Virus record (IMG/VR): IMGVR_UViG_3300021185_001116
Coordinates: 1-21,539 of that record
Direction: 5' to 3' (one strand)
DNA length: 21,539 nucleotides
Source: a virus
In this document: one piece after another, positions 6,843 to 21,539 of the stretch
Numbering within the stretch: position 1 is the first letter of the stretch
How the letters are laid out: each line of letters starts with the position of its first letter
Notes under the pieces: generated by a model
What the model was told of the DNA's origin: nothing
Seen by the model: only the letters and a program-made list of their open reading frames with translations
Databases searched by the model: none
Program-made: the position numbers and the translations under genes

Positions 6843-7355
6843 TTACTTTACAAACTGTCCGTAATTATTTATTGAATTAGAAAGGCCTTCGATAGTTTTT
6901 TCAGCATCTAGTATTAATTCTTTATTTTTAGATGCACTTCCGAAGTAGACGTAAGGTCCTTCGTTAATATTTTCTGCTGGTCTGTTAAATTCCACTTTAC
7001 TTTGGATACTTTGTATATATTGAAACTTTTTTAACTCTAAATACTTTTTCTTTCTAGCTTCTATTATACTCTTAGTTCTTTTATCCTGTAAGAAATACCT
7101 AGTAATATAACCATCTTTATAATTTAACTCAGTTGGTATTATTAAATCATTAGTAAATCTTCTAGCTGGATTGAAAGCATCTGTGTGTACTTCTTTTACT
7201 AACTCTTGAGAAGTTCTTGTAGGAGTCTTGCCTGTGTAGTACTTATCGTTATATGTTTCGAAGTACCAACCAGTATACGCTTTACCAGAAGGTAGATATA
7301 AACTATCTCCTCTAGAGTAAATTGGTTTGCTATATTTTGATTTTGGTAAGTACAT
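6843..7355 (-). CDS. Probable baseplate/tail-associated protein, 170 aa
   Basis: No family can be named with confidence. The N-terminal half is rich in Tyr, Gly and Lys, with a GKAYTGWYFETYNDKYYTGK segment reminiscent of small virion-associated proteins encoded near baseplate genes of marine T4-like phages; this is an impression, not a search result. A long basic helix follows (TKSIIEARKKKYLELKKFQ), and the C-terminus is Asn/Ser-rich. There is no signal peptide or membrane span. Its ATG shares a base with the TAA of the hub gene (TAATG), and an AGGAG lies 10 nt before the ATG inside the hub gene, one of very few plausible ribosome binding sites here. Tight coupling to the hub gene supports a role in the baseplate. 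Confidence 0.6.
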   Translation of the reverse strand: MYLPKSKYSKPIYSRGDSLYLPSGKAYTGWYFETYNDKYYTGKTPTRTSQELVKEVHTDAFNPARRFTNDLIIPTELNYKDGYITRYFLQDKRTKSIIEARKKKYLELKKFQYIQSIQSKVEFNRPAENINEGPYVYFGSASKNKELILDAEKTIEGLSNSINNYGQFVK

Positions 7356-10069
7356 TATGCAAATACTCCTGTGTGTGGGACAGGTATCCCTTTATATCTT
7401 AATTCTAAATGTAAATGATTTAACATTTTACCGGATTTTGCATCATCATATCCTGGTCCAAATATTGAATCACCGGCTAAGTTACCCATACTTCCGACCG
7501 GGTGGCCCTGTCTAACTACATCTCCTACGTTTAGACTTCTTATTGGATTAACATATCCTAAAGTTACTCCATAATCTTTAAATCGTCCTGTACCTTGTAA
7601 TTTAATTTTAGATAAACCTTTAGAAAAGTTTTTTCCTAATGATACTACCTCACCATCAAATGGTGAAACCATCTCTACTCCTGGTGGAATACTATAGTCT
7701 ACTCCTTTATGAATATTTAATTTTCTTTTTGCTCCAAAATTACCTGCTCCTGCTGCATCATTTCTAACTCTTCTCCCAACAGCACTAGGGCCCACAGGGA
7801 ACATTAACTGTACTAATCCATCTTCAGGAATTTCATCAATGATCTCTTCTAAATCAACATCTACTAATACTTCATCTTCTACAGAAAGTAATTCTCCTTC
7901 TGTGTTCATTTCTTCTTCACCTTTAAATTGCCCTGATATAATCATTTGAGCAGTAAGCTCAGTATTCCATTTATTATCACTAATTGAATTAGTAACTCCA
8001 TTAATTAAAAAACTAACCACACCTCTGTATCTTTCTGGAAGTATAGTAGGTGATATATTAAATGCTTCACCAATTTTAAATCCTGCTGTACCTTTTAATT
8101 TAAGTGTCAACTCTAATGGTATTAAACCCGGTATATTAGTTCTAGCTCTAGAAGTATACGTCTGTAAAAATCTTTTCATAGTAAATATATGATCACTTGT
8201 AACAGCTTTATAATCTTCTGCATTATAGTATATCTTATTCTCATCTACTTGAAGTTTCTCTAAAAGTTTTACAATTCTACTTATTTGAGGTTTTTTTTCG
8301 TTCTTCTTTTTTACAGCTCTAATATTTTTATTTACTTGCGTTCTATCTACTAGTCCTTGATTCCATCTTTGCATTTGCAGTAATTCCTCTCCTACATCAG
8401 AACCAGCACTTTGAGCGGAGACTGCTACCATTGCTGCTATACTTGAAGGTATTTTACTATTTAAAGATACGTCTTCTACAACGGTATTTAAACCAATAGT
8501 ATCAATTACAGCATCAGCTAGTTCACTAAAAGCAGGAGTAACTGCTCTATCTACTACATGAAATTGAAATTTTTCATCTTCATAATGTAAATCAAAATCA
8601 TTTATTTTACCTGCATCGGTTGTTAACTTAGAAAGTATTTCTTTTATAAAGTCATATACCGTTTTAGATTCTTCTTCGTTAGTATCTAATTTTTGATTCA
8701 ATACGTCTAATAAGAAATCTACATTTATACATATATTTAATATATCATCTGTATCTCCTGATAGTTCATCTCCTACTTCTGCAAACTTTATTCTAAATTT
8801 ACCTTGCTCTGCTTTACCTTTTGGTAAAAATCCTATATATGGATCAACTAAAAAATGTTGTGGAAAAGTAGTAAAGTTATTTATAGTAGGATCATTATTA
8901 ATATAAAAAGAAATTAAAGCTTCATCTTCTGTCTTTAACATATAGTTTTCGTTTAGGAAAGCTAATAAATTAGAAAGAGGAATGTATTTGAAATATTGAT
9001 CAGGTGTAACATCATCAGAGTTTTTATTTATCTCCACTGAAAATACTTTTAATTCTCTATTATTATCTTCTAATAACTGTTTTGTAGGATCTAATAATGT
9101 TTTATATTCTGGATTACGAAGTAGGTCTTCTGTAAGATTTGGAGAATCACATAAACTCTTAACTGCATGTAAGTAACTGTGTAAAGGTGTAGAATTTTCA
9201 ATGTTAGAAGTAATACTATCTTCTTTTTTATCTTGACCAAAAATAGCTAACTGTAAAGATTCAACTATTTCACCAGCTGATATAACAAATGCTTTACAGT
9301 CATATTCTCCATTTTGCGAATAAGACCAAGTAAAGTTTTTAACATAACCATACATACCCTCATAATTATAATTTGTAAGTTTACGTAATTCATTAATCTT
9401 TTTAGTCACATCAGTACCTTTATACATATTAAAGTACTCATCTCCTATAGTTTGTATTTGAGTCTGAACTTCTCCGTCTTTATCTAAGTAAATTGAATGT
9501 CCCCACTCTAATAACATAGTATATCCTGGTCTTAAAAATAAAGCTTCAAGGTCAGTTAGTTGCTGTATAGAGTTAGCTTTGAACTCTACAGTAGCTATAC
9601 GTAAAGTTCCAAAGGTACCTTCATGTTGTACTTGAAATCCATCTATACCTGGCATTGGTACATAACCGAATACTTCATCTAACTCATATGCTGATCTTGC
9701 ATCATCGGTATCAGGTACTAATCCTGTTCTTATAGCTTGGTCTTTTAAAGTACCTCCCATAAGAACGTATTTTTTCGCTAAATCAGAGCTTCCTATATCA
9801 GGTACCTCTATATCCTTAAACCCTGCTCCTCCAAAAGGATTAGGTAAGTAAGGTAGTTTAAAAGTTTTTTGATCTTCTTTTCCTTTGGCTTTAGTATTAA
9901 CAGAAGAGGTCATTTTAACCCAACCGGTGTTGGCATTAAAGTACAACAACTGGTCATCACTAAAATTGTGAGTCTGGCCGAATACTTCTTGACGTTTATT
10001 GATTAAATTTAAAACGTCTTTAGATATCGGTCCACCAATTATACCTTTGTCAGTGTACTTTAAAGACAT
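7355..10069 (-). CDS. Baseplate hub protein with C-terminal M23 (LytM-type) peptidase
   Basis: This 904-aa protein looks like the hub at the tail tip, fused to a cell-wall hydrolase. The N-terminal third has the hub pattern EGTFGTLRIATVEF, LFLRPGYTMLLEWGHS and YVKNFTWSYSQNGEYDCKAF, ending near ISAGEIVESLQL, as in gp27-like hub proteins of marine and large phages. The last ~120 residues are an M23 metallopeptidase domain with Zn ligands H787 and D791 (HKGVDYS) and the HxH pair H885/H887 (NHLHLEL), all present. M23 enzymes cut peptide cross-links of peptidoglycan, so the protein should open the wall locally during DNA entry, the job of the gp5 lysozyme in T4. There is no signal peptide, which fits a virion component. 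It is coupled to the LysM gene upstream and the 170-aa gene downstream by one-base TAATG overlaps. Confidence 0.85.
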   Translation of the reverse strand: MSLKYTDKGIIGGPISKDVLNLINKRQEVFGQTHNFSDDQLLYFNANTGWVKMTSSVNTKAKGKEDQKTFKLPYLPNPFGGAGFKDIEVPDIGSSDLAKKYVLMGGTLKDQAIRTGLVPDTDDARSAYELDEVFGYVPMPGIDGFQVQHEGTFGTLRIATVEFKANSIQQLTDLEALFLRPGYTMLLEWGHSIYLDKDGEVQTQIQTIGDEYFNMYKGTDVTKKINELRKLTNYNYEGMYGYVKNFTWSYSQNGEYDCKAFVISAGEIVESLQLAIFGQDKKEDSITSNIENSTPLHSYLHAVKSLCDSPNLTEDLLRNPEYKTLLDPTKQLLEDNNRELKVFSVEINKNSDDVTPDQYFKYIPLSNLLAFLNENYMLKTEDEALISFYINNDPTINNFTTFPQHFLVDPYIGFLPKGKAEQGKFRIKFAEVGDELSGDTDDILNICINVDFLLDVLNQKLDTNEEESKTVYDFIKEILSKLTTDAGKINDFDLHYEDEKFQFHVVDRAVTPAFSELADAVIDTIGLNTVVEDVSLNSKIPSSIAAMVAVSAQSAGSDVGEELLQMQRWNQGLVDRTQVNKNIRAVKKKNEKKPQISRIVKLLEKLQVDENKIYYNAEDYKAVTSDHIFTMKRFLQTYTSRARTNIPGLIPLELTLKLKGTAGFKIGEAFNISPTILPERYRGVVSFLINGVTNSISDNKWNTELTAQMIISGQFKGEEEMNTEGELLSVEDEVLVDVDLEEIIDEIPEDGLVQLMFPVGPSAVGRRVRNDAAGAGNFGAKRKLNIHKGVDYSIPPGVEMVSPFDGEVVSLGKNFSKGLSKIKLQGTGRFKDYGVTLGYVNPIRSLNVGDVVRQGHPVGSMGNLAGDSIFGPGYDDAKSGKMLNHLHLELRYKGIPVPHTGVFA

Positions 10070-14816: not shown

Positions 14817-15086
14817 TTATTTAGAAGCCTTTGTCCTGATTGTTGGTTTTATGTCTGGTTTATGTATTTTAGCCTTTTGAACTCCTTGGGCTTTTTTCAT
14901 AGCATCTTCTTCGGCTTTATTTTTTTTATCGTAGAAATCTCTTATTTTACCAAAAGTAAACCTTCTTAACCAAATAGGCATGTTATATACATCATCCCAT
15001 GTATAACCACCTTTACCGTGGAATATTATTTCGTGTATTTGACTAAATACAGACTGTCTATAATCAGAGCTCAGGCCAAAAAAAGT
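14817..15086 (-). CDS. Probable frameshift-encoded C-terminal extension of the gp26-type assembly protein
   Basis: An open frame of 89 codons overlaps the end of the gp26-type gene in the +1 frame and stops 34 nt before the tape measure start. It has no usual start codon near its beginning; the first ATG is at 14981, inside what looks like a conserved block (GGYTWDDVYNMPIWLRRF). That block resembles the second half of frameshifted tail assembly chaperones, where a MP-x-x-L-R-x-F pattern is typical, and it is followed by a long basic helix rich in Lys. Protein-like composition upstream of the ATG indicates that the real product includes the earlier part. The simplest explanation is a ribosomal frameshift on the T7 run at 15078-15084, giving a fusion of about 327 aa (241 + 86). 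If translation instead starts at 14981, the product is 54 aa. Confidence 0.65.
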   Translation of the reverse strand, partial: TFFGLSSDYRQSVFSQIHEIIFHGKGGYTWDDVYNMPIWLRRFTFGKIRDFYDKKNKAEEDAMKKAQGVQKAKIHKPDIKPTIRTKASK

Positions 15087-15801
15087 TTACCCCTATGGGG
15101 AGATCGACTCCTCCTTCCTTAGCACCGTTTGGATAAAATACCAAATCGACATCGGGTTGAATCTCTGTTACTTTATCTCTTAATGCTCTAGCATCTGTAG
15201 CTAGAAGATAATTGCTAACAAAGTCGTTGATCTCACCAGGATTATCTGATCCATCAACTGAAGTAATTAAATGTCTCATTCTAGTTGTTATTTCACTTCT
15301 AGAATCTTTATCTATTTTTTTAGCTCCTTCTTGATCTTTTTCGATACTTTTCTCATCTGCATGTGTGAGAAGCTTATATGTAACTTTTAAACCTGATTTA
15401 GGTAAAGTAAAATCGAATTTATTATTAGATCCTTTTAAACTTTCTAAATCAACTTGTTTTTCGTCTATATTAGATAAATCAACAATATGTTCTTTACCTC
15501 CGTAAGTAATTTTATATTCAGCTCCGTAAGAAAGTATTCTAGCAGCTACCATTATAGCATTTTTATCTCCTATTAATATATCATCGAAGTTAACTCCTTC
15601 TGTGACTATAAGAGATTGTAATAGTTTATCTATTACTGTACCTTGTGCTATGTAGTTTGTATTAGTAAGAATGTCTTCTTCCTTGGCTGTCATATACTTC
15701 ATCTCTATTTCTCCTTTAAATAATGGAGAATCTTCGGAGTAAAGTACTCCTTTTGAGGGTAAAATGACTGTTTCTGTAGGTAATTTAAATTTTGTACTCA
15801 T
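15064..15801 (-). CDS. 26: T4 gp26-type baseplate/tail assembly protein (probable tail assembly chaperone)
   Basis: This 245-aa protein has the pattern of the T4 baseplate protein family that includes gp26. It opens with TETVILPSKGVLYSEDSPLFKG, continues with EMKYMTAKEEDILTN (the lPSkG..Y and lta.dE..L motifs of the family), and then has an all-helical and strand middle with DKLLQSLIV and DILIGDKNAIMVAARILSYG. In T4 it is linked to hub assembly. Its place between tail tube and tape measure is the slot of the tail assembly chaperone (lambda G) in other phages, and its end overlaps an open +1 frame. The ATG at 15801 is preceded by a TATTTATA element 29 nt upstream, not by a Shine-Dalgarno sequence. 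The zero-frame product ends FFWPEL directly after the slippery run. Confidence 0.8.
   Translation of the reverse strand: MSTKFKLPTETVILPSKGVLYSEDSPLFKGEIEMKYMTAKEEDILTNTNYIAQGTVIDKLLQSLIVTEGVNFDDILIGDKNAIMVAARILSYGAEYKITYGGKEHIVDLSNIDEKQVDLESLKGSNNKFDFTLPKSGLKVTYKLLTHADEKSIEKDQEGAKKIDKDSRSEITTRMRHLITSVDGSDNPGEINDFVSNYLLATDARALRDKVTEIQPDVDLVFYPNGAKEGGVDLPIGVNFFWPEL
15075..15090 (-). other. Candidate frameshift site: seven-T run at the end of the gp26-type gene
   Basis: On the coding strand the zero frame reads GTA AAC TTT TTT TGG CCT GAG CTC TGA. The run of seven T lies at 15084-15078. Moving +1 on the run (TTT TTT, skip T, GGC) enters the open extension frame; a -2 slip reaches the same frame. 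The +1 frame has a TAA at 15089-15087, directly before the run, so the two frames overlap by only 26 nt, from 15086 to the zero-frame TGA at 15066-15064. A homopolymer indel in the assembly would look the same. Confidence 0.5.
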
Positions 15802-15914: not shown

Positions 15915-16400
15915 TTAGTAATTTAATATACAGTAGTCCATTGCTACCGTTAACGATAGGTCAACTACTTCACTGTTAGCCCAGTCATAATCACCGAAAT
16001 CAGCTGTTGTAACGAATCCTCCTTTGATTACCCATTCACCAACTATGTCTCCTACTGGTCCTAATATATTAAGAGTTAAATCTTTTTTGTAGAAATCTGA
16101 ATATCCAGCTCTACCTGTTACTGATTCATATGATAATCTAGCCCATTCCATTACAGCTTGTGCTCCTGATGGTGTGATTGGATCATATAAAGTCATTGTT
16201 ATATCAGCCCACTCTCTCTTACCCCTAATCTTACGGTAAGTATTGATGTGATCTAATTTAATCACTTCGTCTGTGAATTCTGGAGCCGATACGTTCTTTA
16301 CTAAGAAGGATGGTATTCCATCTACATAAAGGACAAATCTATTTTGTACCTTCGGCTCGAAGGCTCTAAACATTATTTCGTTTGGGTCTAATACTGCCAT
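15915..16400 (-). CDS. 19: Tail tube protein, gp19-like
   Basis: This 161-aa protein matches T4 gp19 in length and pattern. It opens with FRAFEPKVQNRFVLYVDGIPSFLVKNVSAPEF, in which a strand and loop precede the VK.VS.P segment, then KLDHINTYRKIRGKREWADITMTLYDPI and a closing strand EVVDLSLTVAMDYCIL. This is the single-domain beta-barrel tube fold that polymerises as hexameric rings inside the sheath and conducts DNA. Gene order sheath-tube is as in T4. It has its own TATTTATA element 15 nt before the ATG (16416-16423) and is followed by the terminator at 15864-15889. There is no Shine-Dalgarno sequence before the start. Confidence 0.93.
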   Translation of the reverse strand: MAVLDPNEIMFRAFEPKVQNRFVLYVDGIPSFLVKNVSAPEFTDEVIKLDHINTYRKIRGKREWADITMTLYDPITPSGAQAVMEWARLSYESVTGRAGYSDFYKKDLTLNILGPVGDIVGEWVIKGGFVTTADFGDYDWANSEVVDLSLTVAMDYCILNY

Positions 16401-16436: not shown

Positions 16437-18188
16437 TTATGCTCCAAATGTTGCTCCTGTTGGCTCAACTACGAAGTCTAGTACTATAAATTCTGCTGTC
16501 TTAGCTGGCTGAATAAAGATTTGACCTACTAATTGGTTTCTATCTATTACGTCAGCAGTGTTATTAGTGTCGTCCATTACTACTCTGTAAGCATATAGAC
16601 CTTGTCTTTGTGTAACTCCGTCTAAATATGGATTAACTGCTGCTAAGAATTTGTTTCTTGTTGTTATAGAATTCTGTTCGAATACTAAACCTTGTGCTTG
16701 ATCTCCGATAAACTTCTTAAGATCAATTAATAATCTACGTACATTTACTCTATCTAAAGCGCTTGCTTTAGTTTGTAATGTTTTCTGTCCAAAGATTGCA
16801 ATACCTGTTCCTGGGAATGTAGCAATTGGGTTAACTTTAGCATCATATAAAGTATCTCTATCATTTCTAGATAATTTTCTTTCTGCTTGAATTACTCCTG
16901 GAATACCACCTCTTACAAGTCCTGCTGGTGCAAACCATGGTGCTGCTGCTCCATCTGTGAATGCATATACTCCTGGAATGTAAATTGATGCTGGTACCCA
17001 TACGTTTTTACCTGTCGCTGACGATGTTTGTAACCAAGGCCAGTATGCTGCTGCATAAGAACTATTTAATAGGTCTGCTTTAGTTGTAACGTTAGCTACT
17101 GAAGCTCCGTATCCGTAAAGGTCTACTACTGCGATATTATCTCCTCTAGTTTCTGCTAAAGAAATTAATTTATCAACTGTAGCACTGTGATTATTTTTAT
17201 TTAATCCTGGTGCTGATACTACATTAAATCTATATTCGTCAGAATTTTCTAATACTGTTATCATGTCATCATAAGATCCACCAGTAACTCCTTGGTTATT
17301 AGCATTAATTGCTTCAAACCATTTATTTTCGTTTGCTGCAAGTGTATCTCCTGTTGCGTTGTAGAATGATCCTGATTGTGCTGTAGGTAAGTAATTGTTA
17401 TATGCTATACCTAATGTACCTCCAGAGTTAATAGTACTACCATCATTAGCTAAATAATCTGGTGTAGCGTTTGGTACTGATGCTATTCTAATATAGTTTG
17501 AACTGTTAGAATATGAACCAGATGCTTTGATGTATGTTACACCTGCGCTATCCGATGCTTTAGATAATTGGTTATCTCCAACTAACTTCTGAATAAAATT
17601 GTCTGCGTTAGGATCTAAAGAAAGATTATTGAATGTTTCTAAGATTACTTTATTTTTATGGCTATCATCTCCTCTTCTTACCGATAATGTAAATGTTCCT
17701 TTGGCAGAGCTTACATTTGAGATTTCCCATCTTAAGTTATTAGCTGATCCAGAAAGTAAAGATCCATCGCTGTTCTCTCCTCCAGTATCTGCTGATCCTG
17801 TTGCGTTATTGTATAATGCTCCTCTACCGATCGTTCTAATTGTGAACGGAGAAGATGCACTTCCTGTTGTTGCAGCTATATTAGTATTATCTGCTTCAGA
17901 GAATGAACCAGTTACTACTCTTGATACTAGACAAGAGTTACCTCCTTGAGAGAAGTAAGATTTTACTGCAATTGATGTTAAGTATTCATAAGAATCGGAT
18001 CCTGATGTTACAGTATCTCCAAATTTTCTTACGTATTCGTTATAGGATGTAACAAGTGTAGGTACTTCTACTGGTCCTTTGACTGTAGGTCCTAATATTG
18101 CTGCTCCTGCTTCTAGAGGTGCTGGGGCGATAAAAGATATATCGTTTTCTCTTTGAAATACACCCGGTGAGACTATTGTTTCTGCCAT
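16437..18188 (-). CDS. 18: Contractile tail sheath protein, gp18-like
   Basis: This 583-aa protein is a phage tail sheath subunit. The N-terminal SPGVFQRENDISFIAPAP and AAILGPTVKGPVEVP segments and the early VTSYNEYVRKFGD are typical of gp18. The C-terminal domain has RRLLIDLKKFIGDQAQGLVFEQN, NPYLDGVTQRQGLYAYRVVMDD and QLVGQIFIQPAKTAEFIVLDF, the conserved core that stays attached to the tube and extends into the neighbouring subunit. The middle (about 100-300) is Ser/Gly/Asn-rich and variable, as expected for the surface domain. The sheath contracts on infection and drives the tube through the envelope. Two TATTTATA elements precede it (18216-18223 and 18272-18279). It is somewhat shorter than T4 gp18 (659 aa). 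Confidence 0.95.
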   Translation of the reverse strand: MAETIVSPGVFQRENDISFIAPAPLEAGAAILGPTVKGPVEVPTLVTSYNEYVRKFGDTVTSGSDSYEYLTSIAVKSYFSQGGNSCLVSRVVTGSFSEADNTNIAATTGSASSPFTIRTIGRGALYNNATGSADTGGENSDGSLLSGSANNLRWEISNVSSAKGTFTLSVRRGDDSHKNKVILETFNNLSLDPNADNFIQKLVGDNQLSKASDSAGVTYIKASGSYSNSSNYIRIASVPNATPDYLANDGSTINSGGTLGIAYNNYLPTAQSGSFYNATGDTLAANENKWFEAINANNQGVTGGSYDDMITVLENSDEYRFNVVSAPGLNKNNHSATVDKLISLAETRGDNIAVVDLYGYGASVANVTTKADLLNSSYAAAYWPWLQTSSATGKNVWVPASIYIPGVYAFTDGAAAPWFAPAGLVRGGIPGVIQAERKLSRNDRDTLYDAKVNPIATFPGTGIAIFGQKTLQTKASALDRVNVRRLLIDLKKFIGDQAQGLVFEQNSITTRNKFLAAVNPYLDGVTQRQGLYAYRVVMDDTNNTADVIDRNQLVGQIFIQPAKTAEFIVLDFVVEPTGATFGA

Positions 18189-18558: not shown

Positions 18559-19197
18559 TTATTTATTATTAGGTATACTTAGGTCTGTATCTAAGATAAG
18601 AAATAATCCTCTATTTTCAAACCAATTCTTCCAGAAAATACTTCCTTCATAATTATCCCTGTACTGTAATAGTAGTTTTTGATGTAGTTTATGCATTTCA
18701 GTTTTAAAAGTCTCTTCATTAATTTTAAAAGCTTTCTTAAAAGCATTACTATATCCGGTAAATAATCTCTCATCTAATGTCCTATAGTATATAGAACCAA
18801 AAATACACTCTTCTTTAGTTACTTGGTCGAGTAAGGGTCTACTCTGTATTGCTGCTTTCTGAAAGTATCTGTCTATAGCTCCTTTATATTTTATTTTATT
18901 AGAATTTAAATTAGGCTTAAACTTTACTATAGTCTTATACTTATCTATATCGTCTATTATATTAATAGCTTTCCAAGTAGAGTAGAAATAAGAATAGAGT
19001 TTAGTTTCAAATTTAGGTTCTTCAGTAACTATTTTAAGTTCATTACAGTATTTTTTATATCTGTTGAGCTTAGTTATCCATTTTTTATTATCTTTAACTT
19101 CCCATGTATGTATATATACGTCTGTCTTCTTATTTAAAAAAGGAATAATATTATCAGATAGATCATAGAGAAACCCTGATATAATAATAGCGTTCAT
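18559..19197 (-). CDS. Glycosyltransferase-like protein next to the radical SAM genes
   Basis: This 212-aa protein begins IIISGFLYDL and has DVYIHTWEVKD at about residues 26-36, a pattern (SG..R......DvfiHtW) that I associate with glycosyltransferase-like proteins common in marine phages and algal viruses; this is recognition by eye. Later it has YKTIVKFKPNLNSN (around 87-100), resembling the strand and loop that hold a KxRpD-type nucleotide-sugar site but without a clear Asp there, and a GSIYYRTLDERLF segment. It is basic and Tyr-rich, with no membrane span. It shares one base with the stop of the radical SAM gene upstream (TAATG) and sits one base before the 84-aa gene, so it is translated with the radical SAM pair. 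Activity on a sugar is inferred; the missing acidic residue leaves room for a non-catalytic protein. Confidence 0.5.
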   Translation of the reverse strand: MNAIIISGFLYDLSDNIIPFLNKKTDVYIHTWEVKDNKKWITKLNRYKKYCNELKIVTEEPKFETKLYSYFYSTWKAINIIDDIDKYKTIVKFKPNLNSNKIKYKGAIDRYFQKAAIQSRPLLDQVTKEECIFGSIYYRTLDERLFTGYSNAFKKAFKINEETFKTEMHKLHQKLLLQYRDNYEGSIFWKNWFENRGLFLILDTDLSIPNNK

Positions 19198-20687
19198 TAA
19201 TTTCTACCTAAATCAATTCTAGTCCATTTATCTTTAAGACTTCTATTCTTTTTAAGAAGATCTGGTTTATATTCTGTTGTTTCCCAACCTTCCATACCTC
19301 CTGGTGATAGCTTAACGTCTTTAATACTTTTATCAACCTGTATAGAATCGTACCATTCGGCAAGCATTGGAAAAGTCTTTTTAAAGTCTTTACCTCTTCG
19401 TACATCATACTGTTCATAAAATGATTTAAAATCATGGAAGTGTTTGTCTTTGTCTGCCTCTGCTCTTGCATGTCCTTGATCTACTCCATCTACATAGTCA
19501 ATAACCCTTTGCGTTTGAGAAATCTCATGTTCTAATAATAAACCTGAGTCTCTGTGTTTATCTAACCATACTTGTATTTTATCTACAGCTTCTTTTTTAA
19601 CATCTTCAGGTAAATTAAGAGGGGACATAAATGCAGGCCATCTTAAAAAATTTAAATCTAAAGTAGGCATATTTGGACCATACTTCTTTTTAAGCTCCAA
19701 CATATCATCCATAAACTCTGTCATAGACATTAAAGAAAGACCTGATACTGTCATCATAACTACTATTTGACGTATATTAGCTTCTTCTATCATTCTTACT
19801 ACATTAGATCTCCATTTATCATAATTTATTCCATCTCTTAAATACTCAGCATGAGGACCAAAAGATTCGTTGGAAGTATATATATCGTATGATTCAATAT
19901 CTAATACGTGAGTAGTTTCAATTAGTTTATCTATTAAGACATCTTTAACACCTAGATTAGAGTTAATTGATAAATTTAAGTTTGGAGCAGGTTTATCTGC
20001 AACCATTGCTAAAAATTTCCAGAACCCTGGGCTAGTTGAAGGCTCTCCTCCAGTTATTCTTAATGTCTGTAAATCTTGAGATAAGCTAGGCCACCATCTT
20101 AAGAAAGCATCAACGTATGGATTACCGTCTATATATTTATTTTCAGGATCTGCCCAAGTTCCATTTTGTTGATATGCTCCTGCTGTCAAAGTTTGAAATT
20201 TCTGGTAAGGACCATTTTGATCTATATCTTTACCCCAAGTGGTTGAGTAACTAGGATTACAGTACGAACAAGCAAAATTACAAGATCTATCGAAAGATAG
20301 TTCCACAGTACGTAAATTAACATTAGCATCCCAAGGAGTATTAGGGAGTGCCTGTATATCAGCTGTTTTATACTCTTTACTTCTATATACTCTATCAGAA
20401 ATATTATTTCTACCTAAGTCTTCTACTTTCCAGCAATAAGAACATTCAGCTGGTCTTTCTCCTTCAAGCATCATTTTTCTCATTTTCTTTTTATGCTTGG
20501 TATTATGTAGTGCAGATGGGTTTTCTACTAACTCTTCTACATCAATAGGGTGAGGTAAGGGAAGAAAACATGATCTTGTGAAACCGCTTCCTAAATCTAT
20601 AGTAGCGTTGTACCATTTTGCTGGGCAAAATGCTTTATTTACTGAGTTGAGGTTATCCTCTTTCCATTTAATTAATCTATCTGACAT
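19197..20687 (-). CDS. Radical SAM protein with N-terminal twitch-like cysteine set
   Basis: This 496-aa protein has the radical SAM signature CNFACSYC (CX3CX2C: C136, C140, C143), which binds the [4Fe-4S] cluster that cleaves S-adenosylmethionine, and GGEP at 213-216 for SAM binding, followed by LNLSINSN in the partial TIM barrel. Before the core, four more cysteines occur (C21 in FCPAKWYNATI, C40 in SCFLP, C82 and C85 in ECSYCW), the pattern of a twitch/SPASM-type auxiliary cluster domain placed at the N-terminus, as in the twitch domain-containing radical SAM proteins of marine phages. The C-terminal ~150 residues are charged and helical. The reaction and substrate are unknown. It begins one nucleotide after the stop of a second radical SAM gene and is coupled to a glycosyltransferase-like gene downstream. 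Confidence 0.87.
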   Translation of the reverse strand: MSDRLIKWKEDNLNSVNKAFCPAKWYNATIDLGSGFTRSCFLPLPHPIDVEELVENPSALHNTKHKKKMRKMMLEGERPAECSYCWKVEDLGRNNISDRVYRSKEYKTADIQALPNTPWDANVNLRTVELSFDRSCNFACSYCNPSYSTTWGKDIDQNGPYQKFQTLTAGAYQQNGTWADPENKYIDGNPYVDAFLRWWPSLSQDLQTLRITGGEPSTSPGFWKFLAMVADKPAPNLNLSINSNLGVKDVLIDKLIETTHVLDIESYDIYTSNESFGPHAEYLRDGINYDKWRSNVVRMIEEANIRQIVVMMTVSGLSLMSMTEFMDDMLELKKKYGPNMPTLDLNFLRWPAFMSPLNLPEDVKKEAVDKIQVWLDKHRDSGLLLEHEISQTQRVIDYVDGVDQGHARAEADKDKHFHDFKSFYEQYDVRRGKDFKKTFPMLAEWYDSIQVDKSIKDVKLSPGGMEGWETTEYKPDLLKKNRSLKDKWTRIDLGRN

Positions 20688-20688
20688 A

Positions 20689-21539
20689 TTATGTTAGTTT
20701 ATAAACGTTATATAACTTTTCTGCTATTGGGAATGTATATCTAAAGTCTTGTTTTCTTGATCTATCTAATAATTGTGTATTCTTTCTAAATGTTCTCCAC
20801 TCCGATGGGTCCGATTTGTTAGGGAGTTTTAAAGTTGTAATAATTTTTTTAACTTCTTCGAATGACTGTAAGATACGTGCATGTTGCAAATCATTTTTTG
20901 CTCTGTTTTCAGAATACGGTCCTTCTCTTTTCTCTAACTCTACTTCTAAGTATTCTAGTACTTTAGGTTTTATATCATCTGGTAGATTAGTAATACTAAG
21001 GTGTACTGGATTATAAACAAAACTGATAAATAATTTAATATCTCTATCTAAAGCATAATCTAACATTTCGAATACATACATTACATTTAAAGCTGATATA
21101 GTGCAAGCTATTTCTAATAGTAGTTTATTTTCACTATTAGGATCTTCTTCTATTTTTTTACGAGTTTCTAACCATTTAGTAATATTATTATTTACTGTCA
21201 ACCAGTTTCCAGGGTATCTTAAATAATGAAATCTATCTCCTACTCCATCTAAACTAAACCCTATTCTTGTCATATGAAAAGAAGTAAGTATATCAATATA
21301 TTTTGGAGTAACAATAGTACCGTTAGTATTAAAGCTCATAAATTGAGTCTTTGCATATCCTTGTTTTACACAGTAGTCTAATATTTCCCATTGCTTTTTC
21401 ATTAACATAGGCTCTCCTCCGTATATATCTAATTGCTGTATTTTAGGTAAAATTTCTTTTAAGTACTTCCATATACTACTTTCGTCTAAATATGCTTTAG
21501 AGTATTCTAAAACTTCTTGGTCTAATTCTTCTTCTGTAT
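20689..21539 (-). CDS. Second radical SAM protein (5' end beyond the right edge)
   Basis: The frame is open from its TAA at 20689 to the right edge, giving 282 visible residues. The ATG at 21408 is not the start: the frame continues upstream through IQQLDIYGGEPMLM, which contains the SAM-binding GGEP motif, so the CX3CX2C cluster motif must lie further upstream, outside the window. The remaining part matches a radical SAM barrel: SFNTNGTIVTPKYIDIL, then FHMTRIGFSLDGVGDRFHYLRYPGN, as in SPASM/twitch-family proteins (the SLDG strand and following D..R.g). The visible part has only two cysteines, so there is no C-terminal SPASM cluster. It is one base from the next radical SAM gene, so the pair is surely co-expressed. 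The pair may be a duplication or two sequential enzymes. Confidence 0.82.
   Translation of the reverse strand, partial: TEEELDQEVLEYSKAYLDESSIWKYLKEILPKIQQLDIYGGEPMLMKKQWEILDYCVKQGYAKTQFMSFNTNGTIVTPKYIDILTSFHMTRIGFSLDGVGDRFHYLRYPGNWLTVNNNITKWLETRKKIEEDPNSENKLLLEIACTISALNVMYVFEMLDYALDRDIKLFISFVYNPVHLSITNLPDDIKPKVLEYLEVELEKREGPYSENRAKNDLQHARILQSFEEVKKIITTLKLPNKSDPSEWRTFRKNTQLLDRSRKQDFRYTFPIAEKLYNVYKLT

Follow-up and report, generated by a model that had tools for sequence, protein, structure and literature searches.

The locus at positions 15801–14817 (minus strand) of the window, by which we mean the whole 21,539-nucleotide stretch of IMG/VR virus record IMGVR_UViG_3300021185_001116, raises the question of whether a gene related to T4 gene 26 encodes one protein or two. 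The gp26-type open reading frame ends with ...GTA AAC TTT TTT TGG CCT GAG CTC TGA, in which a run of seven T residues (15084–15078) is soon followed by the stop codon TGA (15066–15064). The +1 frame, which is equivalent to the −2 frame, has an 89-codon open stretch that starts slightly 5′ of the T run and reaches a TAA at 14819–14817. It contains no ATG, GTG, or TTG upstream of an MPIW block located at codon 36 of the open frame, or codon 33 counted after the shift, and a +1 fusion of the two frames is predicted to be 327 aa long. This reading of the frames confirmed the original prediction, which had described a gp26-type gene stopping a few codons past seven T residues and an 89-codon +1 frame without a usual start in its first 35 codons; both its coordinates and its description were correct. 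An independent contig (L009), with 97.9% nucleotide identity across the fusion region, contained the same T run and identical frames. The features of the locus and its neighbors are summarized in Table 1.

Table 1. Features of the gp26-type locus and adjacent tail genes (positions in the window).
Feature	Position	Strand	Basis or remark
Putative gp26-type tail-assembly chaperone gene, short form, 245 aa	15064–15801	−	PF12322 T4_baseplate, phrog_150, AlphaFold2, BFVD
Candidate +1 shift site TTT TTT TGG	15076–15084	−	Probable slip codon TTT 15081–15079, re-pairing to TTT 15080–15078
Zero-frame tail W-P-E-L-stop beyond the slip codon	15064–15078	−	Overlaps the initial +1 codons GGC CTG AGC TCT
C-terminal extension, +1 frame, 86 codons, GLSSDYR...TKASK	14820–15077	−	Would complete the 327-aa long form; conserved in homologues
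Stop codon TAA of the long form	14817–14819	−	Frame reading
Probable tape measure protein, 855 aa	12215–14782	−	Next gene downstream; position; equivalent in immuto annotated as tail tape measure
Tail tube protein, gp19-like	15915–16400	−	Immediately upstream; PF06841 Phage_T4_gp19, E 1.4e-4, below cut-off
Probable tail sheath protein	16437–18188	−	Order as in immuto (sheath, tube, hub, and tape measure annotated)

Relatives were retrieved by tblastn from four cultured phages, namely Flavobacterium phage immuto (55%), Microcystis phage Mel-JY01 (42%), Listeria phage LIS04, and Streptococcus phage GXN1; none was found in the genome_contigs collection. The first homologue search of IMG/VR returned 287 encoding stretches, 80 of which were retained, and the extension lay in the same +1 relation at all 79 loci that were testable for frame. 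Together with the T run and frames shared by the independent contig, this uniformity indicated that the frame arrangement is not due to chance. Searches starting from Mel-JY01, megaphage LR756508, and LIS04 enlarged the set to 175 loci with a +1 extension, representing 150 unique fusions. The arrangement of YTT, T, CCT, and a +1 extension was kept at the 175 loci, the pattern used to collect the sites itself having demanded YTT-T and CCT; among the testable loci, only L190 and L195 failed it. The +1 clade would comprise mostly aquatic phages, together with Listeria and Streptococcus phages.

The codons at the junction were strongly constrained. Among the 150 unique fusions, the first slip-site codon was TTT, TTC, or CTT in 134, 13, and 3 cases, respectively, and the slip codon itself was TTT in 142 and CTT in 8. 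The A-site codon was TGG in 146 fusions, TAC in three, and TTC in one, and, under the collection pattern given above, the base following the slip codon was T and the codon following the A-site codon was CCT in 150/150. Other conserved Phe columns of the same genes use TTT at about 80–85%, and Pro is encoded elsewhere in these genes mostly by CCA, with all four codons employed in conserved Pro columns. Immuto has a site of this kind, AGC TTT CTT TGG CCT GAC. On the tree, no third-position change was counted in one slip-site Phe codon and a single change in the other, compared with 10–33 changes in 28 other conserved two-fold columns; the third position of CCT did not change, compared with 28–49 changes in seven conserved Pro columns. 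In the protein, W242 and P243 were invariant in an alignment of 41 gp26-type proteins. Dual coding can account for the constancy of CCT, because Pro is specified in frame 0 and Leu in the +1 frame; the freezing of TTT or CTT goes beyond dual coding, since TTC would be equally good for the protein. The common denominator of the sites is YTT followed by T, from which a P-site tRNA-Phe or tRNA-Leu can, on codon pairing, slip +1 onto TTT.

In the two exceptional loci, the extension forms an ORF of its own in another frame, which opens with an ATG just 3′ of the gp26 stop and adds approximately 25 N-terminal residues (about 2190–2520 in L190 and about 2190–2511 in L195). The equivalent sites read TTC TTG TAT CCT and TTC CTT TGG CCA, and the protein motif F-L-[YW]-P-D is retained. 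An extension with its own ATG was found in these two loci and at none of the other testable loci. The two cases are suggestive of a nucleotide constraint confined to loci that need shifting.

A +1 slip on CCT instead of YTT, by which tRNA-Pro would move to CTN, deserves consideration because CCT is constant and tRNA-Pro is a known +1 slipper, but we regard it as improbable. The codon would be required anyway if Pro in frame 0 and Leu in the +1 frame are kept, the CTN landing codons pair poorly with tRNA-Pro, and such a slip would not account for the frozen T that follows YTT; moreover, Streptococcus phage GXN1 reads TTT CGT CCC at the equivalent place. The case cited for +1 slipping of tRNA-Pro is CCCUAA in SPP1 (PMC6316719).

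The extension showed the properties of a coding sequence from its beginning. It was present across homologues, and its codons 1–32, which precede MPIW, had a mean dN of 0.18 and a median dS of 0.96, demonstrating purifying selection from the first codon. These values bear on separate translation of the extension, either from an internal start, such as the MPIW ATG, or by re-initiation past the gp26 stop. The Met of MPIW is present in 131 of the 150 extensions, and the extensions of L190 and L195 truly own an ATG; however, the 32 codons upstream of the MPIW ATG are conserved as protein, 94 of the 150 unique fusions lack ATG, GTG, and TTG in the first 30 extension codons, Leu or Phe replaces the Met in 18, and a Shine-Dalgarno-like 4-mer precedes it in only 4 of 130. 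Internal initiation is therefore unlikely, and the frozen third positions of the slip site are not needed for re-initiation. We consider separate translation of either kind a poor explanation of the conserved arrangement.

Sites with an interrupted T run, which make up 21 of the 150, bear on the direction of the shift and on the machinery responsible for it. Thirteen read TTCTTTTGG (T run of four) and eight read TTTCTTTGG (T run of three), and all retain the same +1 arrangement. A −2 ribosomal shift would yield the same frame, and re-pairing after it is feasible in the pure run of seven T. At TTC TTT T, however, such a shift would bring tRNA-Phe to TCT; at TTT CTT T, it would bring tRNA-Leu to TTC. 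Both pairings are mismatched, whereas a +1 shift lands on TTT at either site. The +1 direction is therefore favored, and the alternative of −2, which the original prediction had left beside it, appears highly improbable. Transcriptional slippage, in which RNA polymerase would slip on the seven T residues and leave some mRNAs one U short, accords with the run of seven that the window shares with most homologues, but at the interrupted sites polymerase is offered runs of only four and three T, and we give this explanation very little weight. Ribosomal +1 slippage, which re-pairs well at the interrupted sites, is favored on these grounds. Sequencing error or a pseudogene, as a homopolymer run within a metagenomic contig might suggest, is refuted as a general explanation by recurrence of the arrangement at 175 loci, in many metagenomes and in the cultured phages immuto and Mel-JY01.

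The reading that we prefer, with a probability of roughly 0.9, is that a single gene would give rise to two tail-assembly chaperones, of 245 and 327 aa, through a +1 ribosomal slip. The proposal that a programmed shift joins the gp26-type protein to the extension received strong comparative support from the conserved frames, the slip-site codons, and the dN/dS of the extension, and the predicted pair of a 245-aa protein and a fusion of about 327 aa agreed with the frames and the comparative evidence. In the mechanism we propose, the majority of ribosomes would terminate at the TGA and release the short form. In a minority, the P-site tRNA-Phe paired with the second TTT would slip +1 to the overlapping TTT ahead of TGG decoding (tRNA-Leu would make the slip at loci with CTT), and the shifted ribosomes would read GGC CTG AGC into the extension to produce the long form. 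If lambda G/GT is taken as the model, the short form may coat the product of the adjacent tape measure gene, and the extension of the long form may recruit the tail tube protein. We infer the shifting by ribosomes, the exact slip codon, the ratio of short to long form, and the chaperone and binding roles from sequence.

We also searched for elements that might stimulate the shift. RNA folding of the site region in the window was no better than that of shuffled sequences (z −0.14), a consensus structure of 30 homologues contained three pairs and no covariation, and Rfam gave no match at the site. The 80 nt downstream were somewhat more stable in the window's group than in the control (−13.6 vs −10.1 kcal/mol), without a consensus structure. 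Shine-Dalgarno-like pairing did not exceed the control in the window's group; it was mildly enriched in two other groups, where it may simply stem from codons containing GGG. The lack of a conserved downstream RNA structure and of a Shine-Dalgarno-like stimulator in the window's group weighs against the proposed shift.

A mechanistic parallel is prfB (release factor 2), in which tRNA-Leu on a P-site CUU slips +1 onto UUU, with UGA in the A site and a Shine-Dalgarno sequence upstream. The window's clade resembles prfB in that a P-site YUU would slip +1 onto UUU, and CUU also occurs here at 8 of 150 loci. It differs in that the A-site codon of the window is UGG rather than a stop (TGG, TAC, or TTC across the clade) and in that no Shine-Dalgarno sequence was seen in the window's group.

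The short form matched PF12322 (T4_baseplate) with 27.1 bits, above the cut-off of 24.5, and phrog_150 (baseplate hub) with an E of 1.3e-9; T4 gp26 and gp51 both belong to these two families, and gp26 aligned with the N-terminal part of gp51 with an hhalign probability of 99.3. The window's own extension alone gave no convincing Pfam or PHROG match, and matches of the +1 extensions to phrog_634, representing the gp51-type C-terminal part, were weak and came from 10 of 41 (best E 0.0034). A further family of gp26-type genes, found in S-RIM8, Melnitz, KVP40-type phages, PhiW-14, ZPAH1, XacN1, and RAS14, has Phe-Phe near the end and an extension in the −1 frame; at 87 loci, the standard −1 heptamer T TTT TTC/T is present. 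The +1 and −1 fusions aligned over 283 columns with an hhalign probability of 99.0, and their extensions scored 47.2 against each other (shuffled maximum 13.9; probability 95.5). The −1 extensions in turn scored 54.7 against the C-terminus of T4 gp51 (shuffled maximum 12.3), and those of the cyanophage, KVP40-type, PhiW-14, and ZPAH1 genes clearly matched phrog_634 ('baseplate hub assembly catalyst'). Because the direct match between the +1 extension and T4 gp51 was weak (score 21.9; shuffled maximum 15.5), their link rests on the −1 family. From the profile matches among the fusions, the extensions, and gp26 and gp51, the predicted 327-aa product is the probable counterpart of T4 gp51, and the 245-aa product is the counterpart of gp26. 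T4 gp51 carries the extension in frame and provides the case in which both parts occupy one frame; T4 differs from the window in that gp26 and gp51 are two separate, divergently oriented genes, whereas the window has one gene with two frames.

The short form and the extension were folded separately. The AlphaFold2 model of the short form had a mean pLDDT of 90, and its BFVD matches with names were mostly T4-like hub or baseplate proteins. Among 207 chains aligned to this model, the top two were YqbN (3klu; Z 5.8, rmsd 4.4, 89 aligned), which we take to be a member of the XkdN-like chaperone family, and the HK97 tail assembly chaperone (2ob9; Z 5.1, rmsd 4.0, 97 aligned). It is telling that two phage chaperone-type proteins head the list for the predicted fold, with Z-scores that are middling. 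The extension was modeled as three helices with a mean pLDDT of 80.6, and this model had no significant match in BFVD or the PDB.

The gene order sheath, tube, gp26-type gene, tape measure places the putative chaperone gene between tube and tape measure, the position of lambda G/GT. A tail tube protein is annotated at the equivalent position in immuto and Mel-JY01; for the 855-aa protein itself, Pfam and PHROG gave no confident match. Gene order and the homology with gp26/gp51 and the −1 genes, and more weakly the fold, upheld the suggested tie between the gp26 family and tail-assembly chaperones.

Lambda G/GT, HK97, P2, and SPP1 17.5/17.5* resemble the proposed pair, in that a frameshift near the end of a single gene yields a long product besides the short one, and lambda G/GT and its counterparts likewise lie between tail tube and tape measure. 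No sequence similarity to these chaperone families (lambda G/GT type, HK97, P2, SPP1) was detectable. Lambda and most others shift −1 (PMC5009743), including a putative −1 shift at UUUUUUC in SPP1 (PMC6316719), whereas the window's clade would shift +1 at YTT-T. The haloarchaeal myovirus HSTV-2, for which +1 frameshifting in the tail chaperone gene is considered likely (PMC5009743), resembles the window in this respect and in its contractile tail, and differs in its archaeal host. The cyanophage, KVP40-type, ZPAH1, PhiW-14, and XacN1 genes share the gene, the extension, and the Phe-Phe junction with the window and differ by the −1 frame; in their annotations the extension appears as a small gene apart or is overlooked.

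As side observations on the −1 genes, the extensions at T TTT TTC in L090 (3100–3369), L093 (3260–3441), L097 (2895–3075), L094 (3190–3363), and L092 (3175–3369), from cyanophage, KVP40-type, ZPAH1, and PhiW-14 genomes, are annotated as 'baseplate hub assembly catalyst', as hypothetical, or not at all, and the long product is missed. In Klebsiella phage T765 (Ackermannviridae; L096, 3230–3450), the −1 extension follows GAG ATT TTC ATT TAA, and no standard slippery heptamer is present.

A review treats G/GT frameshifting as conserved among long-tailed phages 'except T4', which makes T4 the named exception to a near-universal feature (PMC5009743). Another source counts gp26 and gp51 among the hub assembly chaperones and gives gp51 as essential and of unknown function (PMC3004832). 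According to PMC12846349, a 2022 Virology paper reported T4-like chaperone genes; PMC12846349 cites it also for −1 signals in them. The chaperone identity of gp26 and gp51 is prior knowledge, as perhaps are the −1 cases; the novelty lies in the conserved +1 site, of which we found no description in the literature, the 2022 paper being represented there by its citation. We think it rather likely that one homologous T4-like gene produces the same short and long pair, with a Phe-Phe junction, by a +1 shift, a −1 shift, the paralogues gp26 and gp51 (the latter an in-frame long copy), or a separate start (L190 and L195), and that the direction of shifting flipped in evolution, the +1 site lacking a recognizable stimulator. 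A large T4-like clade with a +1-made gp26/gp51 pair would show how such a pair can arise from one gene. The role of gp51 as the long-form chaperone becomes directly testable, and the natural series of +1, −1, split, and separately started genes provides material for studying the evolution of ribosomal frameshifting. The predicted long product is absent from present annotations, such as those of immuto and Mel-JY01.

Other genes of the window, all on the minus strand, were also of note. Neighboring radical-SAM-like genes (19197–20687 and 20689–21537; PF04055, the second below cut-off) lie beside the tail genes. A 904-aa tail-region protein (7355–10069) has a C-terminal M23 peptidase domain at residues 786–897, suggesting a hub or spike with predicted peptidoglycan-cutting activity. 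Two adjacent, overlapping cytidylyltransferase-like genes (561–983 and 961–1413; PF01467) are perhaps a tandem duplication.
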